A stretch of 64,000 nt of DNA, from positions 186,001-250,000 of the forward strand of contig NZ_QGGB01000003.1 in the NCBI RefSeq assembly GCF_003150675.1, in the 5' to 3' direction. Positions 21,301 through 57,282 of this stretch are shown piece by piece (within the stretch, counting starts at the first letter, position 1; every line of letters starts with the position of its first letter). The notes beneath the pieces are model-generated. The model saw nothing but the letters and a program-made list of their open reading frames with translations, had not been told where the DNA came from and searched no databases. This stretch comes from Rhodohalobacter mucosus (GTDB taxonomy: Bacteria > Bacteroidota > Rhodothermia > Balneolales > Balneolaceae). The translations under genes were made by a program, and so were the position numbers.

Positions 21301-22311
21301 ATGCTAAACGGAAAATCTATACTCATTACAGGCGGTACAGGATCTTTAGGAAAAGCGTTAACTAAACATATTTTTGAGAAATATCCTGACATTAAGAGAC
21401 TGGTAATATTTTCTCGGGATGAGCAGAAGCAATTCCAGATGGGTCAAGAATATCCAAATGACAAATATCCCCAAATAAGATTTTTTATTGGGGATATTCG
21501 AGATGAACAACGTATAAAACGTGCATTACAAGCAATTGATTACGTGATACATGCAGCGGCTATGAAACATGTACCGATTGCTGAATACAATCCAATGGAA
21601 TGTATTCGTACGAATGTATTGGGAGCTGAGAATCTAATCAATGCATGTCTCGAAACAGAAGTTAAGAGAGTAGTTGCTCTTTCAACGGATAAAGCAGCTG
21701 CTCCAATTAACCTTTATGGGGCAACGAAGCTTACTTCTGATAAGCTGTTTATTGCAGCAAATAATATAAGAGGCTGGAATCCGATTAAATTTTCTGTGGT
21801 GAGATATGGAAATGTCATGGGATCAAATGGATCTGTTATTCCTTTCTTTTTGAAAAAGAAAAAAGAAGGGGTTTTGCCTATTACCGATCCAAATATGACG
21901 CGCTTCAATATTTCTCTTCAGGGTGGGGTAAACATGGTGATGCACGCACTTGAATATGCATGGGGAGGAGAGTTGTTTGTTCCTAAAATTCCATCGTATC
22001 GCATTATGGATGTTGCCGAAGCTATTGGACCAAAATGTGAGAAACCGATAATAGGTATCAGGCCGGGAGAAAAAGTTCATGAAGAAATGATTACGGCATC
22101 TGATTCTTTTAATACATACGACTTAGGAAAATATTATGCCATTCTTCCACAGGTGCCACGGTTTAAGTTGAAAGATTTTATTAAACAAAATAATGCCAAA
22201 CCGGTGGAACAAGGCTTCCGCTACAATTCCGGTGAAAATGAGGAATGGGAAACAGTAGAAAGCCTGCGCAAGCTTATCAAAGAACATGTTGACCCAACAT
22301 TTGAGGTTTAG
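21301..22311 (+). CDS. pseB: UDP-N-acetylglucosamine 4,6-dehydratase (inverting)
   Basis: PseB takes UDP-GlcNAc to UDP-2-acetamido-2,6-dideoxy-beta-L-arabino-hexos-4-ulose, the first step to pseudaminic acid. The 336-residue protein has the NADP-binding ITGGTGSLGKAL (9-20), VIHAAAMKHVPIAEYNP and the catalytic Asp130-Lys131 and Tyr139 in LSTDKAAAPINLYGATK, matching the H. pylori FlaA1/PseB triad Asp132-Lys133-Tyr141. It starts the A+T-rich run; pseC follows after 3 bp. Confidence 0.95.
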   Translation: MLNGKSILITGGTGSLGKALTKHIFEKYPDIKRLVIFSRDEQKQFQMGQEYPNDKYPQIRFFIGDIRDEQRIKRALQAIDYVIHAAAMKHVPIAEYNPMECIRTNVLGAENLINACLETEVKRVVALSTDKAAAPINLYGATKLTSDKLFIAANNIRGWNPIKFSVVRYGNVMGSNGSVIPFFLKKKKEGVLPITDPNMTRFNISLQGGVNMVMHALEYAWGGELFVPKIPSYRIMDVAEAIGPKCEKPIIGIRPGEKVHEEMITASDSFNTYDLGKYYAILPQVPRFKLKDFIKQNNAKPVEQGFRYNSGENEEWETVESLRKLIKEHVDPTFEV

Positions 22312-22314
22312 AGC

Positions 22315-23550
22315 ATGGAAGCAATACCTTACGGTCGCCAAAATATAACAGATGAAGATATCCAGGCTGTCGCTGAAACATTAAAATCCGACTACCTCAC
22401 CCAGGGGCCCCGCATAGCCGAGTTTGAAGAAGCCTTTGCGGATTATGTAGGTTCCAAATATGCCGTAGCGGTTTCCAACGGTACGGCTGCCCTTCATCTG
22501 TGTACACTCGCTTTGAATGTGCTTGAAGGAGACAAAGTTATTACAACGCCAATTACCTTTGCGGCTTCGGCTAATTGCGTTAGGTATTGCGGCGGAGAAG
22601 TAATTTTTGCAGATATCGATCCGGACACGTATTTGCTGGATATCGACAAGGTTCAAGAGCTGTTGGAAGCATCTCCTCAAGGCACCTACAAAGGAATGAT
22701 ACCGGTCGATTTTGCAGGGCGAGCTGTGGATCTGGAAGCGTTTCGGAAGCTGGCAGATGATTATGATCTGTGGATCATTGAAGACTCATGCCATGCTCCG
22801 GGCGGATACTTTATCGATAGCAATGGCAAACAGCAAAATTGTGGTAACGGCCAGTTTGCTGACCTGGCAATCTTTTCATTCCATCCGGTGAAGCACATAG
22901 CCTCCGGTGAAGGCGGAATGATCACAACAAGTAACAAAGTGCTTTATGAAAAGCTTCTCAAACTCCGCACCCACGGCATCACCAAATTCGAATCTGAGTA
23001 TAAAAACTCCGTTGAATTTGCAGTGGGCTCTACTCAAAACTCAAAACTTTCCGATGAGTCGGGACTGCGAAAAGCACGCAGAAATACTCAAAAATACCCA
23101 GCATGGTATATGGAAATGCAGGAACTCGGTTATAATTACCGAATTACTGATTTTCAATGTGCATTAGGCCAAAGTCAGCTAAAAAGAGCGGATGAGGGGA
23201 TTGAAATAAGAAGGGAAATAGCTGAACTTTATTTCAATGCTTTTAAAGGAAAGTCGTTCGTCAAAGGACAGTCGGGCGTGGTTGAAGGACATGCCTACCA
23301 TCTATATGTGATTGAAGTAGAAGACCGTTTGGGATTATATAACTATTTGAGAGAAAATAACATCTATGCTCAGATTCATTACATCCCATGTCACTTAATG
23401 CCTTATTATCGTCAGTTTGGATGGAAAGAAGAAGATATGTTAAATGCTGAAAACTATTATAAGCATTGCATTAGTTTGCCGATATATCCAACATTGACTA
23501 AAGAACAACAGGATTTCGTAATTAAAAAGATCAATGAATATTACGAATGA
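22315..23550 (+). CDS. pseC: UDP-4-amino-4,6-dideoxy-N-acetyl-beta-L-altrosamine transaminase
   Basis: PseC is a PLP-dependent DegT/DnrJ/EryC1 aminotransferase that aminates C4 of the PseB product. The PLP lysine is Lys193 in SFHPVKHIASGEGG; DSCHAPGG (about 157-164) and the N-terminal IPYGRQNITDEDI are typical. At 411 residues it is about 36 longer than H. pylori PseC (375). The surplus falls at about residues 226-262, between RTHGIT and YPAWYMEMQELGYNYR, which are adjacent in normal PseC. The DNA there (23055-23081) matches a hairpin repeat found between genes at 17985-18011, so the insert looks like a repeat that entered in frame. Its stop overlaps the pseF start. Confidence 0.92.
   Translation: MEAIPYGRQNITDEDIQAVAETLKSDYLTQGPRIAEFEEAFADYVGSKYAVAVSNGTAALHLCTLALNVLEGDKVITTPITFAASANCVRYCGGEVIFADIDPDTYLLDIDKVQELLEASPQGTYKGMIPVDFAGRAVDLEAFRKLADDYDLWIIEDSCHAPGGYFIDSNGKQQNCGNGQFADLAIFSFHPVKHIASGEGGMITTSNKVLYEKLLKLRTHGITKFESEYKNSVEFAVGSTQNSKLSDESGLRKARRNTQKYPAWYMEMQELGYNYRITDFQCALGQSQLKRADEGIEIRREIAELYFNAFKGKSFVKGQSGVVEGHAYHLYVIEVEDRLGLYNYLRENNIYAQIHYIPCHLMPYYRQFGWKEEDMLNAENYYKHCISLPIYPTLTKEQQDFVIKKINEYYE
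22990..23100 (+). repeat. Repeat E insertion within pseC
   Basis: The extra segment of pseC contains CTACTCAAAACTCAAAA (tandem-like), then a double hairpin: CCGA/TCGG and CTGCG/CGCAG (23065-23081). TCGGGACTGCGAA and GCACGCAG are shared with the intergenic copy near 18.0 kb. It preserves the frame and codes for about 36 residues rich in Ser, Asn, Lys and Arg. Confidence 0.65.
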
Positions 23551-24233
23551 AAAATATAGCAATTATACCGGCTAGGGGAGGAAGTAAGCGAATCCCCAGA
23601 AAAAATATTCGTGATTTTCTGGGCAAGCCTATTATAGCATATTCCATTGAGACTGCATTGGAAAGTGGACTTTTTGACGAAGTGATGGTTTCTACCGATG
23701 ATTTTGAGATTGCTGAAATTTCAGAGAAATATAGAGCGAAAGTTCCTTTTTTAAGATCAGAAGAAACTGCGGATGATTACGCAACTACGGTGAATGTGCT
23801 TCTTGAAGTATTAAAAACATATCAGAAACAAGGAAAAAAATTCGAATATGGTTGTTGTATCTATCCAACAGCACCGCTGTTGAAGCCTTCTATTATAAAA
23901 AGCGGATATAAGAAACTCATGAGTGAAAGTTTTAGTACTGTGTTTCCGGTCGTTGAGTTTTCATATCCTATACTACGATCATTGAAGCTAAGTGGGAATG
24001 ATAAAGTTGAAATGAATTGGCCAGAACATCAGGAGTCTCGTTCACAAGACTTGCCTAAGGCATATCACGATGCAGGTCAGTTCTATTGGTTCAACGTCGA
24101 AGAGTTTCTTAAAGAAGAAGAACTCTTCGGAAAAAATAGTGGGGCACTAATATTGCCAAATACCAGCGTACAGGATATTGATACTGAGGAAGACTGGAAG
24201 TTGGCAGAGATGAAAGCGAAGCTCTCAGAATGA
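23547..24233 (+). CDS. pseF: Pseudaminic acid cytidylyltransferase
   Basis: PseF activates pseudaminic acid with CTP to CMP-Pse. The 228-residue protein has the CMP-sialate synthetase signature IIPARGGSKRIPRKNIRDF (5-23), DEVMVSTDDFEIAE and the metal-binding DIDTEEDW near the C terminus. Size and motifs fit TIGR03584-type PseF. It overlaps pseC by 4 bp and pseG by 4 bp, implying coupled translation. Confidence 0.93.
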   Translation: MKNIAIIPARGGSKRIPRKNIRDFLGKPIIAYSIETALESGLFDEVMVSTDDFEIAEISEKYRAKVPFLRSEETADDYATTVNVLLEVLKTYQKQGKKFEYGCCIYPTAPLLKPSIIKSGYKKLMSESFSTVFPVVEFSYPILRSLKLSGNDKVEMNWPEHQESRSQDLPKAYHDAGQFYWFNVEEFLKEEELFGKNSGALILPNTSVQDIDTEEDWKLAEMKAKLSE

Positions 24234-25231
24234 ATCAGAGGGTATACATACGAACTGATGGAAGTACTGATATAGGATTAGGCCATTTGGTACGGTGTAT
24301 GTCACTTGCTCATATGCTCAAAAATGATTTTTCTATTCATTTCTTTGCATTAGAAATTCCAGATTCTCTTAAAAATGAGATCACTCAAAATGGCTGGGAA
24401 GTGAATGTTGTAGAGAAAGAATTAGATTTTGTGAATGAGCTTACCGGAGATGAAATCGTGGTACTCGATGGATACCAATTTGATTCTGATTGTCAGAAGC
24501 AAATAAAGGGTAAAGAATGCAAATTGGTTTGTATTGATGATTTCCACCAAGGGCATTTCTATGCAGACTTAGTGATCAATCATGCACCTGGTGTAATTAA
24601 AGATGATTATGAGGGCGAGCCATACACAAAATATTTATTGGGTCCTGATTATGCTTTGCTTAGACCAGAGTTTCTTGGTAGTAACTCACGAGCAGAAAAT
24701 AACTCGAAAGGTATAAAGTATATATTCGTCTGTTTTGGAGGCTCCGATAATAAAAACCTTACATCTAAGATTTTATCATGGCTTCCTTCAAAAAATTACT
24801 CGGTCACAGCTGTACTTGGTAATGCTTACCTACATCAAGATGAATTGAATAAAGTGATAAAGAAAAGAGAGGATCTAAAAGTTATTGTAAAAAAATCTTT
24901 GAGTGCAAAAGAGATGAAGCTTGAACTGGAACATTCAGATTTTGCGATAGTGCCTGCAAGCGGCATTCTATTTGAGGTGATTTCAACCAAGCTTCCTGCT
25001 ATGTCAGGGTATTACATTGATAATCAAAAAAGAATATATGACGGATTTAAGGCTTTAGGGTGCATTATTGATGCCATAAATTTTAGTAAAGAACATTTTC
25101 ACAAAGCCATGCACTCAATAGATGATAAGAGCCTTGCATTGATCAGGGAAAACCAAAATCGAGCAATAGATGGAATGTCAATGAATCGAATCAATGAAGA
25201 ATTTAAAAATCTTGCAAGTATATGCTTATAG
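24230..25231 (+). CDS. pseG: UDP-2,4-diacetamido-2,4,6-trideoxy-beta-L-altropyranose hydrolase
   Basis: PseG removes UDP from the altrose intermediate before condensation with phosphoenolpyruvate. The 333-residue GT-B-like hydrolase has RTDGSTDIGLGHLVRCMSLA (8-27; catalytic His19), VCIDDFHQGHFYADLVINHA, YLLGPDYALLRPEF and VCFGGSDNKN. There is no fused N-acetyltransferase domain, which some PseG proteins carry. If the preceding N-4 group is formylated rather than acetylated (see the next gene), the enzyme must accept that substrate. Its last 10 bp overlap the formyltransferase gene. Confidence 0.92.
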   Translation: MNQRVYIRTDGSTDIGLGHLVRCMSLAHMLKNDFSIHFFALEIPDSLKNEITQNGWEVNVVEKELDFVNELTGDEIVVLDGYQFDSDCQKQIKGKECKLVCIDDFHQGHFYADLVINHAPGVIKDDYEGEPYTKYLLGPDYALLRPEFLGSNSRAENNSKGIKYIFVCFGGSDNKNLTSKILSWLPSKNYSVTAVLGNAYLHQDELNKVIKKREDLKVIVKKSLSAKEMKLELEHSDFAIVPASGILFEVISTKLPAMSGYYIDNQKRIYDGFKALGCIIDAINFSKEHFHKAMHSIDDKSLALIRENQNRAIDGMSMNRINEEFKNLASICL

Positions 25232-26097
25232 GGATATTAACATCCGGCGGTCTGGGGTATAAGGTAATATCTGAGATAATAAATCGGATTAAGAAACCTG
25301 AGTTTATTGCCACTGATAGCAACTCTGAGCAAATTATTGAGTTTTCAAATCAAAACGAGGTATTGGCATTTATTGGCAACCCAAGAGGTGGGAAATTAGT
25401 CGATTTTCTGAAAAAGAATGAAATTGAAGTGGATCTAATTCTTTCGATTAATTACCTGTTTCTTTTGGATGAAGAGTTAATTGATTCTTTGCCGATGGCT
25501 ATAAACCTGCATGGAAGCCTTCTTCCTAAATACAGGGGGCGCACTCCACATGTCTGGTCTATTATTAATGGGGAAACCAAAACCGGGGTAACAGCGCATG
25601 TAATTGATACTAATTGTGATACGGGTGATGTCGTAAAACAAGTAGAAGTTCCAATAGAAAAAGACGATACGGGTGCAACAATTCTGAAAAAGTTTGAGAA
25701 GATATACCCTGAGCTATTGTTTTCTGTTATAGAGGAGGCTCAATCAGATGATCTTAAAAGAGTCAAACAAGATAACAGTAAAGCCACTTTTTTTGGAAAG
25801 AGAACCCCGGATGACGGCTTGATTAACTGGAGTTGGCATAAAGAACGCATTCGCAATTGGGTACGGGCACAGGCTAATCCTTATCCAGGAGCATTTAGCC
25901 TGTTAAATGGAGAAAGGGTTATTGTAGACGAAGTAAATTATTCCGATATAGGATTTAGTGATACAACCAAAAACGGTACAATTTTAGATGTCATAGAAAA
26001 TCCTATCATAAAATGTCCTAACGGGGCAGTTGAACTTACTCGAGTTAGGAACCAAGATATTTTGAAAAAATTTAAATCAAAGATGGTACTTAAGTAA
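25222..26097 (+). CDS. Sugar N-formyltransferase (methionyl-tRNA formyltransferase fold)
   Basis: The 291-residue protein has the formyltransferase catalytic triad Asn95, His97 and Asp133 (INLHGSLLPKYRGRTPH, then DTNCDTGDVV); the 38-residue spacing from Asn to Asp equals that of ArnA. The C-terminal part (about 195-291) is a small beta domain as in Fmt. N10-formyltetrahydrofolate-dependent enzymes of this group N-formylate amino sugars. It lies between pseG and pseI where PseH acetyltransferase is usually encoded, and no acetyltransferase is seen anywhere in the run. A role in formylating N-4 of the altrosamine intermediate, giving Pse5Ac7Fo, is inferred. Confidence 0.85.
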   Translation: MLIGILTSGGLGYKVISEIINRIKKPEFIATDSNSEQIIEFSNQNEVLAFIGNPRGGKLVDFLKKNEIEVDLILSINYLFLLDEELIDSLPMAINLHGSLLPKYRGRTPHVWSIINGETKTGVTAHVIDTNCDTGDVVKQVEVPIEKDDTGATILKKFEKIYPELLFSVIEEAQSDDLKRVKQDNSKATFFGKRTPDDGLINWSWHKERIRNWVRAQANPYPGAFSLLNGERVIVDEVNYSDIGFSDTTKNGTILDVIENPIIKCPNGAVELTRVRNQDILKKFKSKMVLK

Positions 26098-27137
26098 TGA
26101 AGATTGCAGATTTTGAAATTTCAGGAAAAAGCAGAACATTTATTATAGCTGAGCTTTCAGCGAATCACAATGGTGATAAGCAGATTGCAATTGATACTAT
26201 CCGTGCGGCAAAAAAAGCTGGGGCGGATGCCATAAAGCTTCAAACCTATACTCCGGATACTATTACGATTGATTGCGATAACGAATACTTCCAGATACAA
26301 GAAGGGCTTTGGGAAGGTAAAACACTATACGAGCTTTACGGTGAAGCTTATACTCCTTGGGAATGGCATGAAGAATTATTCCAAGTGGCTAAAGAAGAGG
26401 GTTTAATATGTTTTTCTTCACCTTTCGATAAATCAGCCGTTGATTTTCTTGAAGAGCTAAATACGCCGGCGTATAAGATTGCTTCTTTTGAAATACAGGA
26501 TATTCCGTTAATAGAATATGCTGCATCAAAGGGAAAACCTATCATTATGAGTACCGGAATTGCCAAAAAAGATGATATTAAACTTGCAATAGATAGCTGC
26601 CGGAATGTTGGTAACGAAGAAATTATTCTGCTAAAATGTACCTCTTCGTATCCGGCACCGATTGAATTGGCTAATCTGAAAACTATGGTCGATATGAAAG
26701 AACGATTTAGTGTTGAAGTGGGGCTTTCTGATCACACGCTTGGAAATACCGTTCCCATTGTGGCAACCAGTCTAGGAGCAAGAATCATCGAGAAACATTT
26801 TATTTTGGATAAATCAATTGGTGGTCCAGATGCGGACTTCTCCTTAGATCTGAAAGAATTTAGTTCCATGGTAAAAGCAGTAAGGGAAGTGGAAAAGGCA
26901 TTAGGAGAAGTTACCTATGTACTTTCTGAAAAAGTTGAAAATAATAAAAAATTTGCTCGGTCCCTTTTTGCTGTTAAAGATATAAAGAAAGGAGAAGTGA
27001 TTACTGAGGAAAATGTTAGATCGATTAGACCAGGGTATGGAATGCATCCTAAGCATTATGATGGAATAAAAGGTAAAAGAGTCGCAACAGATATTGTAAA
27101 GGGAGAGCCCATTAGCCAAATGCACCTTAATCAATGA
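26097..27137 (+). CDS. pseI: Pseudaminic acid synthase
   Basis: PseI condenses 2,4-diacylamino-2,4,6-trideoxy-L-altrose with phosphoenolpyruvate. The 346-residue NeuB-family protein starts with FIIAELSANHNGDKQIAIDT, has AIKLQTYTPDTIT, CTSSYPAPIEL, VGLSDHTLG and the C-terminal SAF (antifreeze-like) domain at about 285-346 (RSLFAVKDIKKGEVI, RPGYGMHP). The TIDCDNEYF segment and overall length favour PseI over NeuB or LegI. ATG overlaps the formyltransferase stop (TAATG). Confidence 0.93.
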   Translation: MKIADFEISGKSRTFIIAELSANHNGDKQIAIDTIRAAKKAGADAIKLQTYTPDTITIDCDNEYFQIQEGLWEGKTLYELYGEAYTPWEWHEELFQVAKEEGLICFSSPFDKSAVDFLEELNTPAYKIASFEIQDIPLIEYAASKGKPIIMSTGIAKKDDIKLAIDSCRNVGNEEIILLKCTSSYPAPIELANLKTMVDMKERFSVEVGLSDHTLGNTVPIVATSLGARIIEKHFILDKSIGGPDADFSLDLKEFSSMVKAVREVEKALGEVTYVLSEKVENNKKFARSLFAVKDIKKGEVITEENVRSIRPGYGMHPKHYDGIKGKRVATDIVKGEPISQMHLNQ

Positions 27138-31357: not shown

Positions 31358-32390
31358 CACTACACCTCCAACTAATTCAGGAGGAGTAGCAAATCATTAC
31401 AAGGGGCTTAAAGAATATTGGACTGAAGAAGTCCACTATAATTATATTGGTGGCCGAAAAAATGTTCCAGGATCAATTATTATATGGTATGATCTGATAA
31501 AATTAATTTGGAAATTGATAGCGATTAAGCCGGACTTAGTTTTACTTAATCCTTCTTTGAGAAAAGGGGCAATCAAAAGAGATGGTCTATTTCTGAGAGT
31601 AAGTAAGATATTTGGTAAGAATACTGTGGTATTTTTTCATGGTTGGAACCAAGAGTTAGCTAAAGAGATTTCAAACTCACCATATAAATTTATTAAACTA
31701 TTTAATAAGGCTGATAAAATTTTGGTTCTGGCTTCAGCGTTTAAAGAACAACTTAAAGACTGGGGTATTACCAAACCTATTTCACTTACAACCACAAAGG
31801 TAGATGATGAGTTAGTTTCACAATTTGTGATTACAGAGAAAAAATATACAAAGACCATTTTATTTTTGGCCCGGATAGAAAAGGCTAAGGGTATATTTAT
31901 TGCATTGGATGCTTTTAAAACAATCAAAGAAGTTGTTACTGATGCAAGAATGATAATTGCAGGAAATGGAAATGCTTTGAATGAAGCGAAAAATTATGTA
32001 AAAAGCTCAAAACTGCGCGATATAAATTTTACAGGTTATTTGAGGGAGGAGGAACTTATCCAAACATATATACAATCTGACTTGTATATATTACCTACTT
32101 ATGGAGAAGGAATGCCTACTTCTGTTTTAGAAGCAATGTCTTTTGGCTTGCCAGTAATTTCTCGGCCGGTTGGTGGAATGGTGGATTTTTTTGAAAATGG
32201 GAAAATGGGGTATTTGGTTAATTCATTCTCTCCGGAAGATTTTGCAAAACGAGTGATAGAAATTTTATTGGAGAAAGAGAAACATCAAGCTACGGGGCGT
32301 TATAATTTTCAGTATGCCAAAGAGCATTTTTATGCTTCGCATGTAGCCCGGGAAATGGAAAAGCATTTTTATGAAGTTGTAACCTTATGA
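31341..32390 (+). CDS. GT4 family glycosyltransferase
   Basis: The 349-residue GT-B enzyme shows an N-terminal acceptor domain (TTPPTNSGGVANHYKGL), LFLARIEKAKGIFIALDAFK, IAGNGNALNEA, and the GT4 donor motif YILPTYGEGMPTSVLEAMSF (EX7E) followed by GLPVISRPVGGMVDFFENG. It transfers a nucleotide-activated sugar to the growing lipid-linked unit at the inner face of the membrane. The donor cannot be read from sequence. It overlaps the polymerase gene by 17 bp and the sulfotransferase by 4 bp. Confidence 0.9.
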   Translation: MTVLINTTPPTNSGGVANHYKGLKEYWTEEVHYNYIGGRKNVPGSIIIWYDLIKLIWKLIAIKPDLVLLNPSLRKGAIKRDGLFLRVSKIFGKNTVVFFHGWNQELAKEISNSPYKFIKLFNKADKILVLASAFKEQLKDWGITKPISLTTTKVDDELVSQFVITEKKYTKTILFLARIEKAKGIFIALDAFKTIKEVVTDARMIIAGNGNALNEAKNYVKSSKLRDINFTGYLREEELIQTYIQSDLYILPTYGEGMPTSVLEAMSFGLPVISRPVGGMVDFFENGKMGYLVNSFSPEDFAKRVIEILLEKEKHQATGRYNFQYAKEHFYASHVAREMEKHFYEVVTL

Positions 32391-33244
32391 GTAAAGAATT
32401 TATCTTCATTGTAGGCCAACATCGCACTGGATCTACCTTGCTTAAAAATATTCTGGATGCCCATTCTGGAATTAATATGGCCTTTGATGAGATGAATTTG
32501 TTTGAACCTTTTCGAAAAAATACACTTGATCGGTTTGTGGAAGAACAGAAGTTAAATGCAAGAGAAGTAGTAGGTTTAATTAAAGGGCAAAAAATTTATG
32601 GTACTTTTTGGAAAGACTTTGAAGAGTCTAGAATTGATTTTGATGATCTAGAAAGATGTCTTCAAAAATCAGAGATTATAAATAGTAAAACTATATTGAA
32701 GGCGATATTAAATCTTCTAAGGAAAAAAAAAGGGAGCATTTATTCAGGTGTTAAATACCCTGTACATGCAAGGAAGGTAGATTTTTTAATCTCTCATTTT
32801 CCAGATGCAAAAATTATTTTCTTAACTCGTAATCCATCTGCAATTATTGCTTCAAAACTGAACGATGAAGCGACACGTCAAAGAAAAAATAAATCTTGGT
32901 TACATCGATTTATTATTCACTATTTTACGATTCTATATTTCGCCATTGAATACATAATTTCTATCAATGCATATGAGAAATTTAAAGATCATGTAAAATT
33001 GATACAGTATGAACATTTAGTTACAGAGCAATCTGTAGCAGTTAGAGCATTATGCAAGTGGCTTGAGGTGGAATTTGATGTAACTATGTTGAATGTTTCT
33101 GGGAAAAAAAGTAGTCATGATATTCAAGAGAAAACCAAAGTCCATGGTTCCAGTCTGGATCGCTATAAAAAAATATTGAATATATGGGACAGGGCTTTGA
33201 TTTGGTTTTTAACTGCTAAACACTTTAAAAAGTTACAAGCTTGA
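32387..33244 (+). CDS. PAPS-dependent sulfotransferase family protein
   Basis: The 285-residue protein has the 5'-phosphosulfate loop FIVGQHRTGSTLLKNILDAH (5-24) and the 3'-phosphate motif IIFLTRNPSAIIASKLND (about 145-162) of the sulfotransferase fold. Bacterial members in polysaccharide loci sulfate sugars. It sits between a GT4 enzyme and a deacetylase-like gene in the same operon, so a cytosolic sulfation of the repeat unit is likely. No APS/PAPS synthesis genes are in the window. Confidence 0.85.
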   Translation: MSKEFIFIVGQHRTGSTLLKNILDAHSGINMAFDEMNLFEPFRKNTLDRFVEEQKLNAREVVGLIKGQKIYGTFWKDFEESRIDFDDLERCLQKSEIINSKTILKAILNLLRKKKGSIYSGVKYPVHARKVDFLISHFPDAKIIFLTRNPSAIIASKLNDEATRQRKNKSWLHRFIIHYFTILYFAIEYIISINAYEKFKDHVKLIQYEHLVTEQSVAVRALCKWLEVEFDVTMLNVSGKKSSHDIQEKTKVHGSSLDRYKKILNIWDRALIWFLTAKHFKKLQA

Positions 33245-44798: not shown

Positions 44799-44931
44799 CC
44801 CTGAACCCTGAACCCTGAACCCTGAACCCTGAACCCTGAACCCTGAACCCTGAACCCTGAACCCTGAACCCTGAACCCTGAACCCTGAACCCTGAACCCT
44901 GAACCCTGAACCCTGAACCCTGAACCCTGAA
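44799..44931 (+). repeat. Tandem heptamer (CCCTGAA)19
   Basis: Nineteen perfect, uninterrupted CCCTGAA units fill 133 bp. The same unit occurs seven times at 4776-4824. Perfect identity of all units suggests ongoing slippage. It ends 43 bp before the truA start codon. Confidence 0.98.
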
Positions 44932-47907: not shown

Positions 47908-47977
47908 ATGGTATGAATTTATAAATATCTCGCTCCGCCGCCGGCATTGTCTTATAGGAATCACAAAAGGAATAACG

Positions 47978-48513
47978 ACTGCCTTGCTTGCCGGCACTAA
48001 AGTACCGGCTGCTATATGTTGCCCTCGATGCCTCGGGTCTGGTTGTGTAGCCATAATCTTAGCCAAGACCAAACCCCGCAACTGCGGGGTGCCATATACG
48101 AACGAGACTGCCCTGCTTGCCGGAACTAAAGTACAGGCTGCTATATGTTGCCCTCGATGCCTCGGGTCTGGTTGTGTAGCCATAATCTTAGCCAAGACCA
48201 AACCCCGCAACTGCGGGGTGCCATATACGAACGGGACTGCCCTGCTTGCCGGAACTAAAGTACCGGCTGCTATATGTTGCCCTCGATGCCTCGGGCCTGG
48301 TTTTGTAGCCATAATCTTAGCCAAGACCAAATCCAGCAACTGCGGGATGCCATATACGAACGGGACTGCCCTGCTTGCCGGCACTAAAGTACCGGCTGCT
48401 ATATGTTGCCCTCGATGCCTCGGGCTTGGTTGTGTAGCCATAATCTTAGCCAAGACCAAACCCCGCAACTGCGGGGTGCCATATACGAGCGAGGGTTTCA
48501 ACCCTCGTGACCA
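47978..48513 (+). repeat. 129-bp tandem array, four units of element C
   Basis: Unit starts, set at CCGGNACTAAAG, are 47991, 48120, 48249 and 48378: an exact 129-bp period. Each unit has the hairpin order of element C (GCCGG/CCGGC, CCCTCGA-type, ACCCCGCA/TGCGGGGT, CGAACGAG). Only the last ends with the ACGAGCGAGGGTTTCAACCC hairpin. As 129 is a multiple of three, frames stay open on both strands (180 and 217 codons), but they lack initiation signals and have no family resemblance. Units differ at a few positions only. Confidence 0.95.
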
Positions 48514-55119: not shown

Positions 55120-57282
55120 TTAGTTAAAAGACGGAATCAGTACCTCATCAATGATGTGTACCACTCCGTTGGTACCTTCCAGGTCGGCAACAGTTACAAC
55201 CGCAGATGAGCCTGCCGCGTCAATGGTAACCGTACCGCCGGAAACCGTAATGGTGACGTCCTGGTCATTCAGCATCGTAATCGTTTGGGTCGGCTGAAGA
55301 TCAGTTGACAGCACAAGTGCATCGTACACATGGTAGAGAAGTGTCTCAACTACCTGCGGTGTTGTCAGCGTTGCCAGTGTTGCTTCGATGGCCTCAAAAG
55401 CAGCGTTCGTCGGTGCAAACACGGTAAACGGTCCGTCTCCCTGAAGGGTAGTGACCAAGTCATTGTCAGAAAGCAGCCCTACCAGGGTGGTGAGGTCATA
55501 ATTTTTCGAGACAATACCTGTAACATCAAGGAAAGCATTTGGTAAAAGTACTGAGTCAATAACATGAATTACACCGTTGGCTGATTCAACATCCGCTGCA
55601 GTTACTGTAGACGATGCATTTACCGATACACCGGCTTCACCTGAAGTGATGTAGAGTGACTCAGCTGAACCGGATTCTACAGTTTGCTCTGCCGCAAGGT
55701 CGGTTGAAAGAATCGTGCTGCCAATGATCGTGTGGTACAGCAGAATGTTCTCTACCTGCTCGGGAGTGAGTGAGTTTGGATCAACTTCCGCAAAGAGGGC
55801 ATCAAAAGCCTCATTGGTAGGAGCAAATACGGTGATTTCATTATTCGCCACTGCGTCTACAAGGTTTGCCTGCACAAGCAAGTCCACCAGTGTAGTGAAA
55901 TTGTAGTTTTTCTGTGCAACTTCCGCAGTATTCAGAAATGCGTTCGGCAGAAGCACGGTATCTACGGCATGAATCACGCCATTGGTGGCTTCCACATCGG
56001 CTGTTACAACTGTTGAGTTACCATTTACAACAACTCCTTCAGAATCTGCAGTAATGTAGAGTGGTTCTGTTGAGCCTGACTCTACGGTTTGCTCTGCAGC
56101 AAGGTCTGTTGAAAGAATGGTGCTGCCGATTATTGTGTGATAGAGAAGAATATTCTCAACCTGCTCGGGAGTGAGAGATGCAGGGTCTACTTCTGCAAAA
56201 AGTGCGTCAAACGCATCGTTTGTCGGTGCAAAAACTGTTATTTCAGAACTTGCAACAGCGTCCACAAGGTTCGCCTGCACAATAAGGTCAACAAGCGTGG
56301 TAAAGTTGTAGTTCTTCTGGGCTACCTGTACCGCATTCAGAAATGCATTCGGCAGAAGTACTTGATCCACTACGTGAACAACACCGTTGGAGGCTTCAAG
56401 ATCAGCGGGACCTACATTGGCTGAACCGTTTACAACAACACCTTCCTGGCCGGAAGTAATATACAGAGGATCACCGTTGGCTGAGCTTACAGTTTGTTCA
56501 GCTTCAAGATCCGTGGAAAGAATCGGGCTTCCGGTTATGACGTGATACGTGAGGATAAATCCGATCTGCTCTTCGGTTAACGAGGCGGGATCGATCTCTG
56601 CGAACAGTGCATCAAAAGCATCGTCTGTTGGAGCAAACGCGGTGTATGGGCCCAGAAACTGAAGGGTAGTCTTCAGGCCGCCCTGCTCAACAAGGTCGAG
56701 CAATGTGGTAAAATTACCTGCATCCTCTGCAATTTCAACCAGAGACGGGCCTTCAACCGCTACGCGAAACTCTTTGGGAAGGAGTACTTCGTCAACTGCA
56801 TGGATAATTCCGTTGGTTGCTTCTACATCGGCTACAACAACGTTGGAGCTTCCGTTAACAACTACACCGGCAGCACTTGACTGCACAAGGGTGAGCTCTT
56901 CATTCAGCATCTCAACATCCTGTTGGGGTTGCAGGTCACCGGAAGCAATGGTTCCTTCGGTAACATGGTAGCTCAATATTTCAATTATATCATCCTGTGT
57001 CAGGTCGTTAGGATTTACAACTTCAAAAAGCTCCTCGAAAGCAGCATCTGTAGGTGCAAAAACTGTTAATTCATCGGTAGACAAGAGATCCTGGAGTCCG
57101 GCATCCTGTACCAAGCCTACAAGAGTGGTAAACCGGCCGTCTTCCTGGGCTGTTTCTACAATGTTAAGCTCATCATCACCATTGTCGGTGACATCGTTAT
57201 CGTCGCCGCAGGCTGTAAATAGCAATGCTGCCACCAGCGGAGCCAATAGGAGAACCAGTAGTCTGTTGAAAGGTGTCTTCAT
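55120..57282 (-). CDS. Five-domain fasciclin lipoprotein
   Basis: The 720-residue protein has a lipoprotein signal (LLFTACGDDND, lipobox Cys at about 25) followed by an acidic linker and five fasciclin (FAS1) domains of about 130 residues. Each starts with a block like VAQKNYNFTTLVDLLVQANL and contains TVFAPTNxAFDALF, ILLYHTIIGSTILSTDL and GVIHxVDxVLLPNAF. Domains 3 and 4 are almost identical in protein sequence but differ at many synonymous sites. FAS1 domains mediate adhesion or surface binding. It is very acidic, as often seen in salt-adapted bacteria, and likely exposed on the outer membrane. Confidence 0.93.
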   Translation of the reverse strand: MKTPFNRLLVLLLAPLVAALLFTACGDDNDVTDNGDDELNIVETAQEDGRFTTLVGLVQDAGLQDLLSTDELTVFAPTDAAFEELFEVVNPNDLTQDDIIEILSYHVTEGTIASGDLQPQQDVEMLNEELTLVQSSAAGVVVNGSSNVVVADVEATNGIIHAVDEVLLPKEFRVAVEGPSLVEIAEDAGNFTTLLDLVEQGGLKTTLQFLGPYTAFAPTDDAFDALFAEIDPASLTEEQIGFILTYHVITGSPILSTDLEAEQTVSSANGDPLYITSGQEGVVVNGSANVGPADLEASNGVVHVVDQVLLPNAFLNAVQVAQKNYNFTTLVDLIVQANLVDAVASSEITVFAPTNDAFDALFAEVDPASLTPEQVENILLYHTIIGSTILSTDLAAEQTVESGSTEPLYITADSEGVVVNGNSTVVTADVEATNGVIHAVDTVLLPNAFLNTAEVAQKNYNFTTLVDLLVQANLVDAVANNEITVFAPTNEAFDALFAEVDPNSLTPEQVENILLYHTIIGSTILSTDLAAEQTVESGSAESLYITSGEAGVSVNASSTVTAADVESANGVIHVIDSVLLPNAFLDVTGIVSKNYDLTTLVGLLSDNDLVTTLQGDGPFTVFAPTNAAFEAIEATLATLTTPQVVETLLYHVYDALVLSTDLQPTQTITMLNDQDVTITVSGGTVTIDAAGSSAVVTVADLEGTNGVVHIIDEVLIPSFN

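Follow-up and report, generated by a model that had tools for sequence, protein, structure and literature searches.

In the biosynthesis of pseudaminic acid (Pse), PseH acetylates N-4 of the sugar intermediate before PseG removes the NDP, as set out in a passage of PMC6388019. Passages of two papers (PMC3210612, PMC7281560), the first of which refers to a polysaccharide, cite the 7-formamido form of Pse from a marine bacterium, Pseudoalteromonas distincta, and the initial annotation of the DNA discussed here was right to name N-formyl Pse as a natural sugar. In Halorubrum, an excerpt describes N-formyl legionaminic acid together with a gene "possibly" encoding an N-formyltransferase (PMC6137143). 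A 2016 study of flagellin glycosylation islands in Geobacillus describes, in the passages on these genes, pse genes without pseH, and the type III islands resemble our locus as they combine pseB, pseC, pseF, pseG and pseI with a formyltransferase gene, fmt2 (PMC5109656). For a further gene, fmt3, that replaces the acetyltransferase gene fdtC, the same passages argue that formylation of another sugar occurs instead of acetylation. The passages on fmt2, which we compare with our gene by description, draw no such link to the missing PseH (PMC5109656). Additionally, the main text of a 2026 survey of Pse in Clostridium contains neither "formyl" nor "PseJ" (PMC13317340).

The PseJ structures listed are 6ci2, 6ci4, 6ci5 and 6edk, and the first two of these PDB entries bear the name "formyltransferase PseJ". 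In Anoxybacillus kamchatkensis, PseJ was reportedly shown by Reimer and others in 2018 (ACS Chem Biol) to add a formyl group to the PseC product toward 7-formamido Pse. Given the solved structures and this work, the formyl route proposed for our locus, which is very probably right, was already known; the formyltransferase described below is of a different build from PseJ.

In this report, a stretch of 64,000 nucleotides from Rhodohalobacter mucosus (the window) is examined, in which a formyltransferase gene (FT) lies between pseG and pseI. We will argue that FT is very probably a sugar N-formyltransferase that stands in place of PseH and gives a direct 7-N-formyl route to Pse.

The pse operon of R. 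mucosus

The operon runs from 21301 to 27137 in the order pseB-pseC-pseF-pseG-FT-pseI (window positions):

21301..22311, + strand: pseB, UDP-GlcNAc 4,6-dehydratase (inverting); TIGR03589, 508 bits, cut-off 408
22315..23550, + strand: pseC, aminotransferase making the 4-amino group; TIGR03588, 446 bits, cut-off 424
23547..24233, + strand: pseF, CMP-Pse cytidylyltransferase; TIGR03584, 323 bits, cut-off 206
24230..25231, + strand: pseG, UDP-sugar hydrolase; TIGR03590, 189 bits, cut-off 154
25222..26097, + strand: FT, predicted two-domain ArnA-like sugar N-formyltransferase in the PseH slot; PF00551 and PF02911, catalytic triad, structure model
26097..27137, + strand: pseI, pseudaminic acid synthase; TIGR03586, 524 bits, cut-off 340

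The five pse genes, first recognized from the sequence, are all present, as each product scores above its NCBIfam equivalog cut-off. The accompanying claim that all the genes overlap holds in part: neighbours overlap by 1-10 nt, with the FT stop and the pseI start sharing 1 nt (TAATG), but pseB and pseC are separated by 3 nt.

The formyltransferase and its relatives

The FT open reading frame (25222-26097) begins with ATG, runs without an internal stop and encodes 291 amino acids. The Pfam domains Formyl_trans_N (86 bits) and Formyl_trans_C (52 bits) both score above cut-off and the catalytic triad (N95, H97 and D133) is intact. In the alignment of the FT family the three triad columns are invariant in 15 of 15 rows, as is the HGSLLPKYRGRTPHVW stretch. 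The domains and the alignment bear out the initial reading of a formyltransferase with the Asn95/His97/Asp133 triad between pseG and pseI. The structure predicted from the 15-row alignment has a mean pLDDT of 91 and matches Fmt and ArnA chains over its full length (Z 29-31, rmsd 2.2-2.6, 278-286 residues; Foldseek was also run). From this modelled fold alone the substrate would not be readable.

The closest solved chain by sequence is the N-terminal formyltransferase domain of ArnA (127 bits with the single sequence and 186 bits with the FT family profile), which is also closest by fold, tied with Fmt (2bln_A, Z 30.7, rmsd 2.2, 285 residues, 28% identity). ArnA acts on UDP-Ara4N and makes a 4-formamido UDP-sugar. 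Unlike ArnA, FT sits in a Pse operon and is without the UDP-GlcA oxidase half, scoring 171 bits against the ArnA equivalog cut-off of 777.

With the same family profile, the best chains of Fmt, WbkC, the LgrA formylation domain and PseJ score 120, 103, 74 and 68 bits, respectively; PseJ is not the closest solved chain to FT. Both proteins belong to the formyltransferase superfamily. PseJ is said to be encoded with Pse genes and to formylate a UDP-sugar toward 7-formamido Pse, and its reported setting, among Pse genes with PseH missing, is shared by FT. However, PseJ chains have 192-217 residues in one domain, whereas the 291 residues of FT include the C-terminal PF02911 domain. The absence of PseJ among the best 50 listed matches of either structure search with the FT model carries no weight. 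FT may work like PseJ, yet with its second domain and its profile scores it is not classed as PseJ.

A profile search of the R. mucosus genome found four genes with Formyl_trans_N, namely FT and three others that carry an additional ACT domain (contig C2), carry a C-terminal domain (C9) or have a single domain (C11), and that are probably PurU-like, Fmt-like and PurN-like, respectively. Since all three are separate genes, FT is a dedicated fourth gene. FT and Fmt share the same two-domain fold (Z about 30), which would fit an origin by duplication of a methionyl-tRNA formyltransferase gene and drift of the copy into the cluster, but we give this origin next to no chance. FT scores 138 bits against the Fmt equivalog cut-off of 201.5, the separate Fmt-like gene is found on C9, and the FT tree places the family away from the C9 protein, on one side of a branch recovered in 74% of bootstraps (moderate support). 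The Fmt duplicate was rejected on these three grounds.

The FT family and its position before pseI

Relatives were sought by the FT sequence alone and not by Pse context. Matches were found in five of 296 genomes of the phylum, its own genome included (E<=1e-30), in four of 92 genomes of the host family, in 12 of 397 genomes of the family to which genome G174 belongs, and at two loci in public genome contigs. Merging of repeats, including a locus (L010) on the same contig as L003 that was counted once, left 18 places: 15 family members, with the window itself as one and 45-80% identity to the window FT, and three weaker matches (G066, G151 and G621) with 33-36% identity. The family occurs in Balneolaceae, Flavobacteriaceae and one Chitinophagaceae MAG.

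In all 15 members FT immediately precedes pseI and is encoded on the same strand, with a gap of -41 to +13 nt measured on the longest ORF; this is true of none of the three weaker matches. The G151 match groups in the FT tree with the Fmt-like protein of R. mucosus itself, and the G621 match (L142; 492 amino acids, 34% identity) was not counted among the 15, being located ~3 kb downstream of a PseI relative. Across the 15 loci the outer genes vary in number and size pattern and therefore the conserved unit is the Pse operon with FT. Among mobile elements, 386 plasmid and 60 phage records match FT, none at >=60% identity; the matches listed (40 plasmid, 20 phage) have 27-42% identity, and the annotated ones among them are ArnA or methionyl-tRNA formyltransferase.

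In genomes G434 and G650, PseG and FT form single proteins of 629 and 643 amino acids, with PseG above cut-off in both. These parallel the fusions of PseG to a PseH-like GNAT in other Bacteroidota clusters (467-511 amino acids), and thus FT replaces PseH within the fusion. A GNAT-FT fusion of 483 amino acids in G724 similarly parallels GNAT-GNAT fusions of 337-338 amino acids in G154 and G289.

The position before pseI bears on whether FT formylates a different nucleotide amino sugar of the same glycan, its placement in the pse operon being incidental. Two observations would suit this explanation, as the closest solved relative by sequence, ArnA, is a UDP-Ara4N enzyme, and contig C2 encodes two further strong DegT-type aminotransferases, the products of which FT could formylate in trans. 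However, PseC is the sole DegT-family match at E<=1e-10 on the contig of the window, all 15 clusters keep FT next to pseI despite their differing outer-gene size patterns, and two genomes have FT fused to PseG. These three points disfavour a different amino sugar as the substrate, which we regard as highly improbable.

Lack of a plausible PseH

The R. mucosus genome (3.9 Mb in 17 contigs, 97% complete) was searched for PseH (TIGR03585), which was not found genome-wide, the best match reaching 16.2 bits against a cut-off of 93.1. No ORF of the window was matched by four locally built PseH/GNAT profiles at E<=10. The earlier claim that no PseH is encoded stands up to the genome-wide search. Four proteins of the genome match Acetyltransf_3, three of them above the Pfam cut-off, and all are encoded outside the window (the nearest on the same contig, 33 kb before the window); by eye they look like generic GNATs.

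In the sample of 296 phylum genomes, PseI exceeds its cut-off in 41 and PseH in one. Many GNATs that sit in Pse clusters of the phylum score below the PseH cut-off, and therefore the cut-off by itself can exclude little. More weight is carried by how low the score is in R. mucosus and by the lack of a GNAT profile match among the window ORFs. PseH was above cut-off in none of the 14 FT-bearing genomes searched, a set that omits the Chitinophagaceae MAG as the 15th. In 13 of the 14 the PseH model does pick up at least one protein at E<=0.001, with scores of up to 56 bits and nearly always away from the cluster; R. mucosus and G092 reach just 16 and 25 bits, respectively.

It may be asked whether an acetyltransferase encoded elsewhere serves as PseH, with FT modifying a second position or a later Pse intermediate. 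Most FT genomes do hold GNATs elsewhere, and a GNAT-fold protein lies beside FT in five of the 15 FT clusters. Nonetheless, we consider this explanation improbable, as the best PseH score in R. mucosus is just 16 bits and the four Acetyltransf_3 proteins outside the window appear generic by eye. Furthermore, ten of the 15 clusters pair FT with PseG, and eight of these ten have no PseH-like GNAT in the fetched stretch (~7-10 kb on each side of pseI); the other two (L135 and L143) have a further GNAT adjoining pseC. The N-acetyl group at C-5 of Pse comes with the UDP-GlcNAc, so one new acyl group suffices, which also counts against a PseH elsewhere.

The proposed 7-N-formyl route

The position directly before pseI in 15 of 15 clusters, the PseG fusions in two genomes and the lack of a plausible PseH support FT acting at N-4 of the intermediate (N-7 of Pse), and the direct 7-N-formyl route of the initial annotation gains support from the same three results. 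The substrate, the formyl donor and the final sugar are those that we infer. PseB and PseC would produce UDP-4-amino-4,6-dideoxy-beta-L-AltNAc, and FT would transfer the formyl group of N10-formyl-tetrahydrofolate to the 4-amine with the Asn/His/Asp triad of the ArnA/Fmt superfamily. PseG would then strip UDP from the 4-N-formyl sugar, PseI would join the product to PEP, by which C4 becomes C7, and PseF would form CMP-Pse5Ac7Fo for a surface polysaccharide. FT would carry out the same step as PseH from the same genomic slot, although PseH has the unrelated GNAT fold and uses acetyl-CoA as the donor. FT is a candidate genomic marker for 7-N-formyl Pse in Bacteroidota, and the ArnA-like FT and the natural PseG-FT fusions are possible tools for making CMP-Pse5Ac7Fo.

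A GNAT-fold protein in clusters without PseG

The main doubt on FT standing in for PseH comes from the five FT clusters in which PseG is replaced in position by a GNAT-fold protein, here called GNATA. This conserved protein of 184-188 amino acids is found at the PseG position in ten Pse clusters without PseG:

L011:10168-10725: GNATA, free-standing
L089:11044-11604: GNATA, free-standing
L085:10917-11471: GNATA, free-standing
L078:11078-11635: GNATA, free-standing
L134:9563-10129: GNATA, free-standing
L139:9706-10269: GNATA, free-standing
L004:7441-8004: GNATA, free-standing
L077, L079 and L141: GNATA, fused

Iterated GNAT profiles drift into each other, and the GNATA calls are those of single-sequence phmmer. 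PseG was above cut-off in none of the six GNATA genomes searched (G174, G084, G170, G226, G154 and G289; maximum 23 bits). The fold of GNATA is clearly that of a GNAT (Z 21 to spermidine acetyltransferase and 20 to PseH) and its score with the PseH model is about 21-25 bits. GNATA may have replaced the UDP-sugar hydrolase without being related to it, or it may be an additional acyltransferase. Its presence at the PseG position in five of 15 FT clusters means that an acetyltransferase could do the job of PseH there, and if GNATA is the pathway acetyltransferase, FT would have to act on a different target in these five. This ambiguity does not arise in the ten clusters that have both PseG and FT, except for the extra GNAT in two. 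The idea that GNATA is without the acetyl-CoA loop, as it appeared by eye, was dropped, since the motif occurs in two of 12 GNATA sequences and in 15 of 34 other cluster GNATs, which is insufficient separation.

In L135 (4020-7523) and L143 (4847-8259), a GNAT and three genes of ~290, 254 and 435 amino acids lie between pseC and pseG, and L142 has genes of similar sizes. By eye, the three genes encode an aldo/keto reductase, a cytidylyltransferase and a glutamate-semialdehyde-type aminotransferase, and the insert is perhaps for a further modified nonulosonic acid.

The slot before pseI

For 42 PseI hits above cut-off at 41 loci, the window included, we surveyed which gene or domain immediately precedes pseI and assigned it with our own, uncurated profiles at 30 bits. 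The slot holds a PseH-like GNAT in 26 cases, a member of the FT family in three (G000, G092 and G174), another formyltransferase in one, a carbamoyltransferase in two and other content in ten. One of these ten is L099, in which a short ORF intervenes and a PseG-GNAT fusion lies just upstream. With ten of 42 slots free of a GNAT, formyltransferase or carbamoyltransferase, the slot is no strict rule.

A short formyltransferase-like gene of 217 amino acids lies between pseG and pseI in G183 (L110:10537-11190). It is unlike the window FT family, scores 23 bits to PseJ and by eye has Val at the expected catalytic Asn; with this protein as the query, PseJ was absent among the five best alignments listed.

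Carbamoyltransferases of 559-560 amino acids are encoded between pseG and pseI in L092 (10546-12228; G171) and L100 (7687-9366; G108), both from the genus of the window. They carry PF02543 and PF16861 and match the NodU model with 120 bits. A GNAT was not found in the fetched stretch of either cluster. A carbamoyltransferase in the pseI slot could give a 7-N-carbamoyl (ureido) Pse. We know of no such sugar, and among the papers listed for pseudaminic acid with carbamoyl, none mentions it in its title or abstract opening.

In a PseI tree of 54 rows, the window PseI forms a group with its counterparts in L003 and L143 (support 100/99) and, less firmly (92/87), this group joins eight Flavobacteriaceae FT clusters. 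The window PseI does not group with the PseI proteins of G108 and G171, two genomes of the same genus, and those of L011, L141, L139 and L004 fall elsewhere on the tree. Such a grouping points to movement of the cassette between lineages. Among the labelled rows, no fewer than three changes are required to explain the FT label, by which FT and the acetyltransferase seem to have been swapped more than once.

A swappable gene is thus suggested to set the N-7 acyl group of Pse. The broader proposal treats the slot before pseI as an interchangeable cassette for the N-7 acyl group, for which Bacteroidota recruited an ArnA-like FT independently of PseJ and swapped it on several Pse backgrounds, with members of the genus of the window using a NodU/TobZ-type carbamoyltransferase instead. 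We offer this broader proposal tentatively and think it rather doubtful as a whole.

The surrounding locus

The locus around the pse operon looks like a polysaccharide locus. Its further features within the window are:

29987: O-antigen ligase match, weak and below cut-off
31341: glycosyltransferase
32387-33244: sulfotransferase (PF13469, 94 bits)
40506: export protein with SLBB and Poly_export domains

The sulfotransferase inside the locus suggests a sulfated glycan. Elsewhere in the window there are two perfect or near-perfect tandem arrays, one of 19 copies of a 7-base unit (44799-44931) and one of four copies of a 129-base unit with 95% matches (47977-48493), and a 720-amino-acid protein with five fasciclin domains (PF02469) is encoded at 55120-57282.
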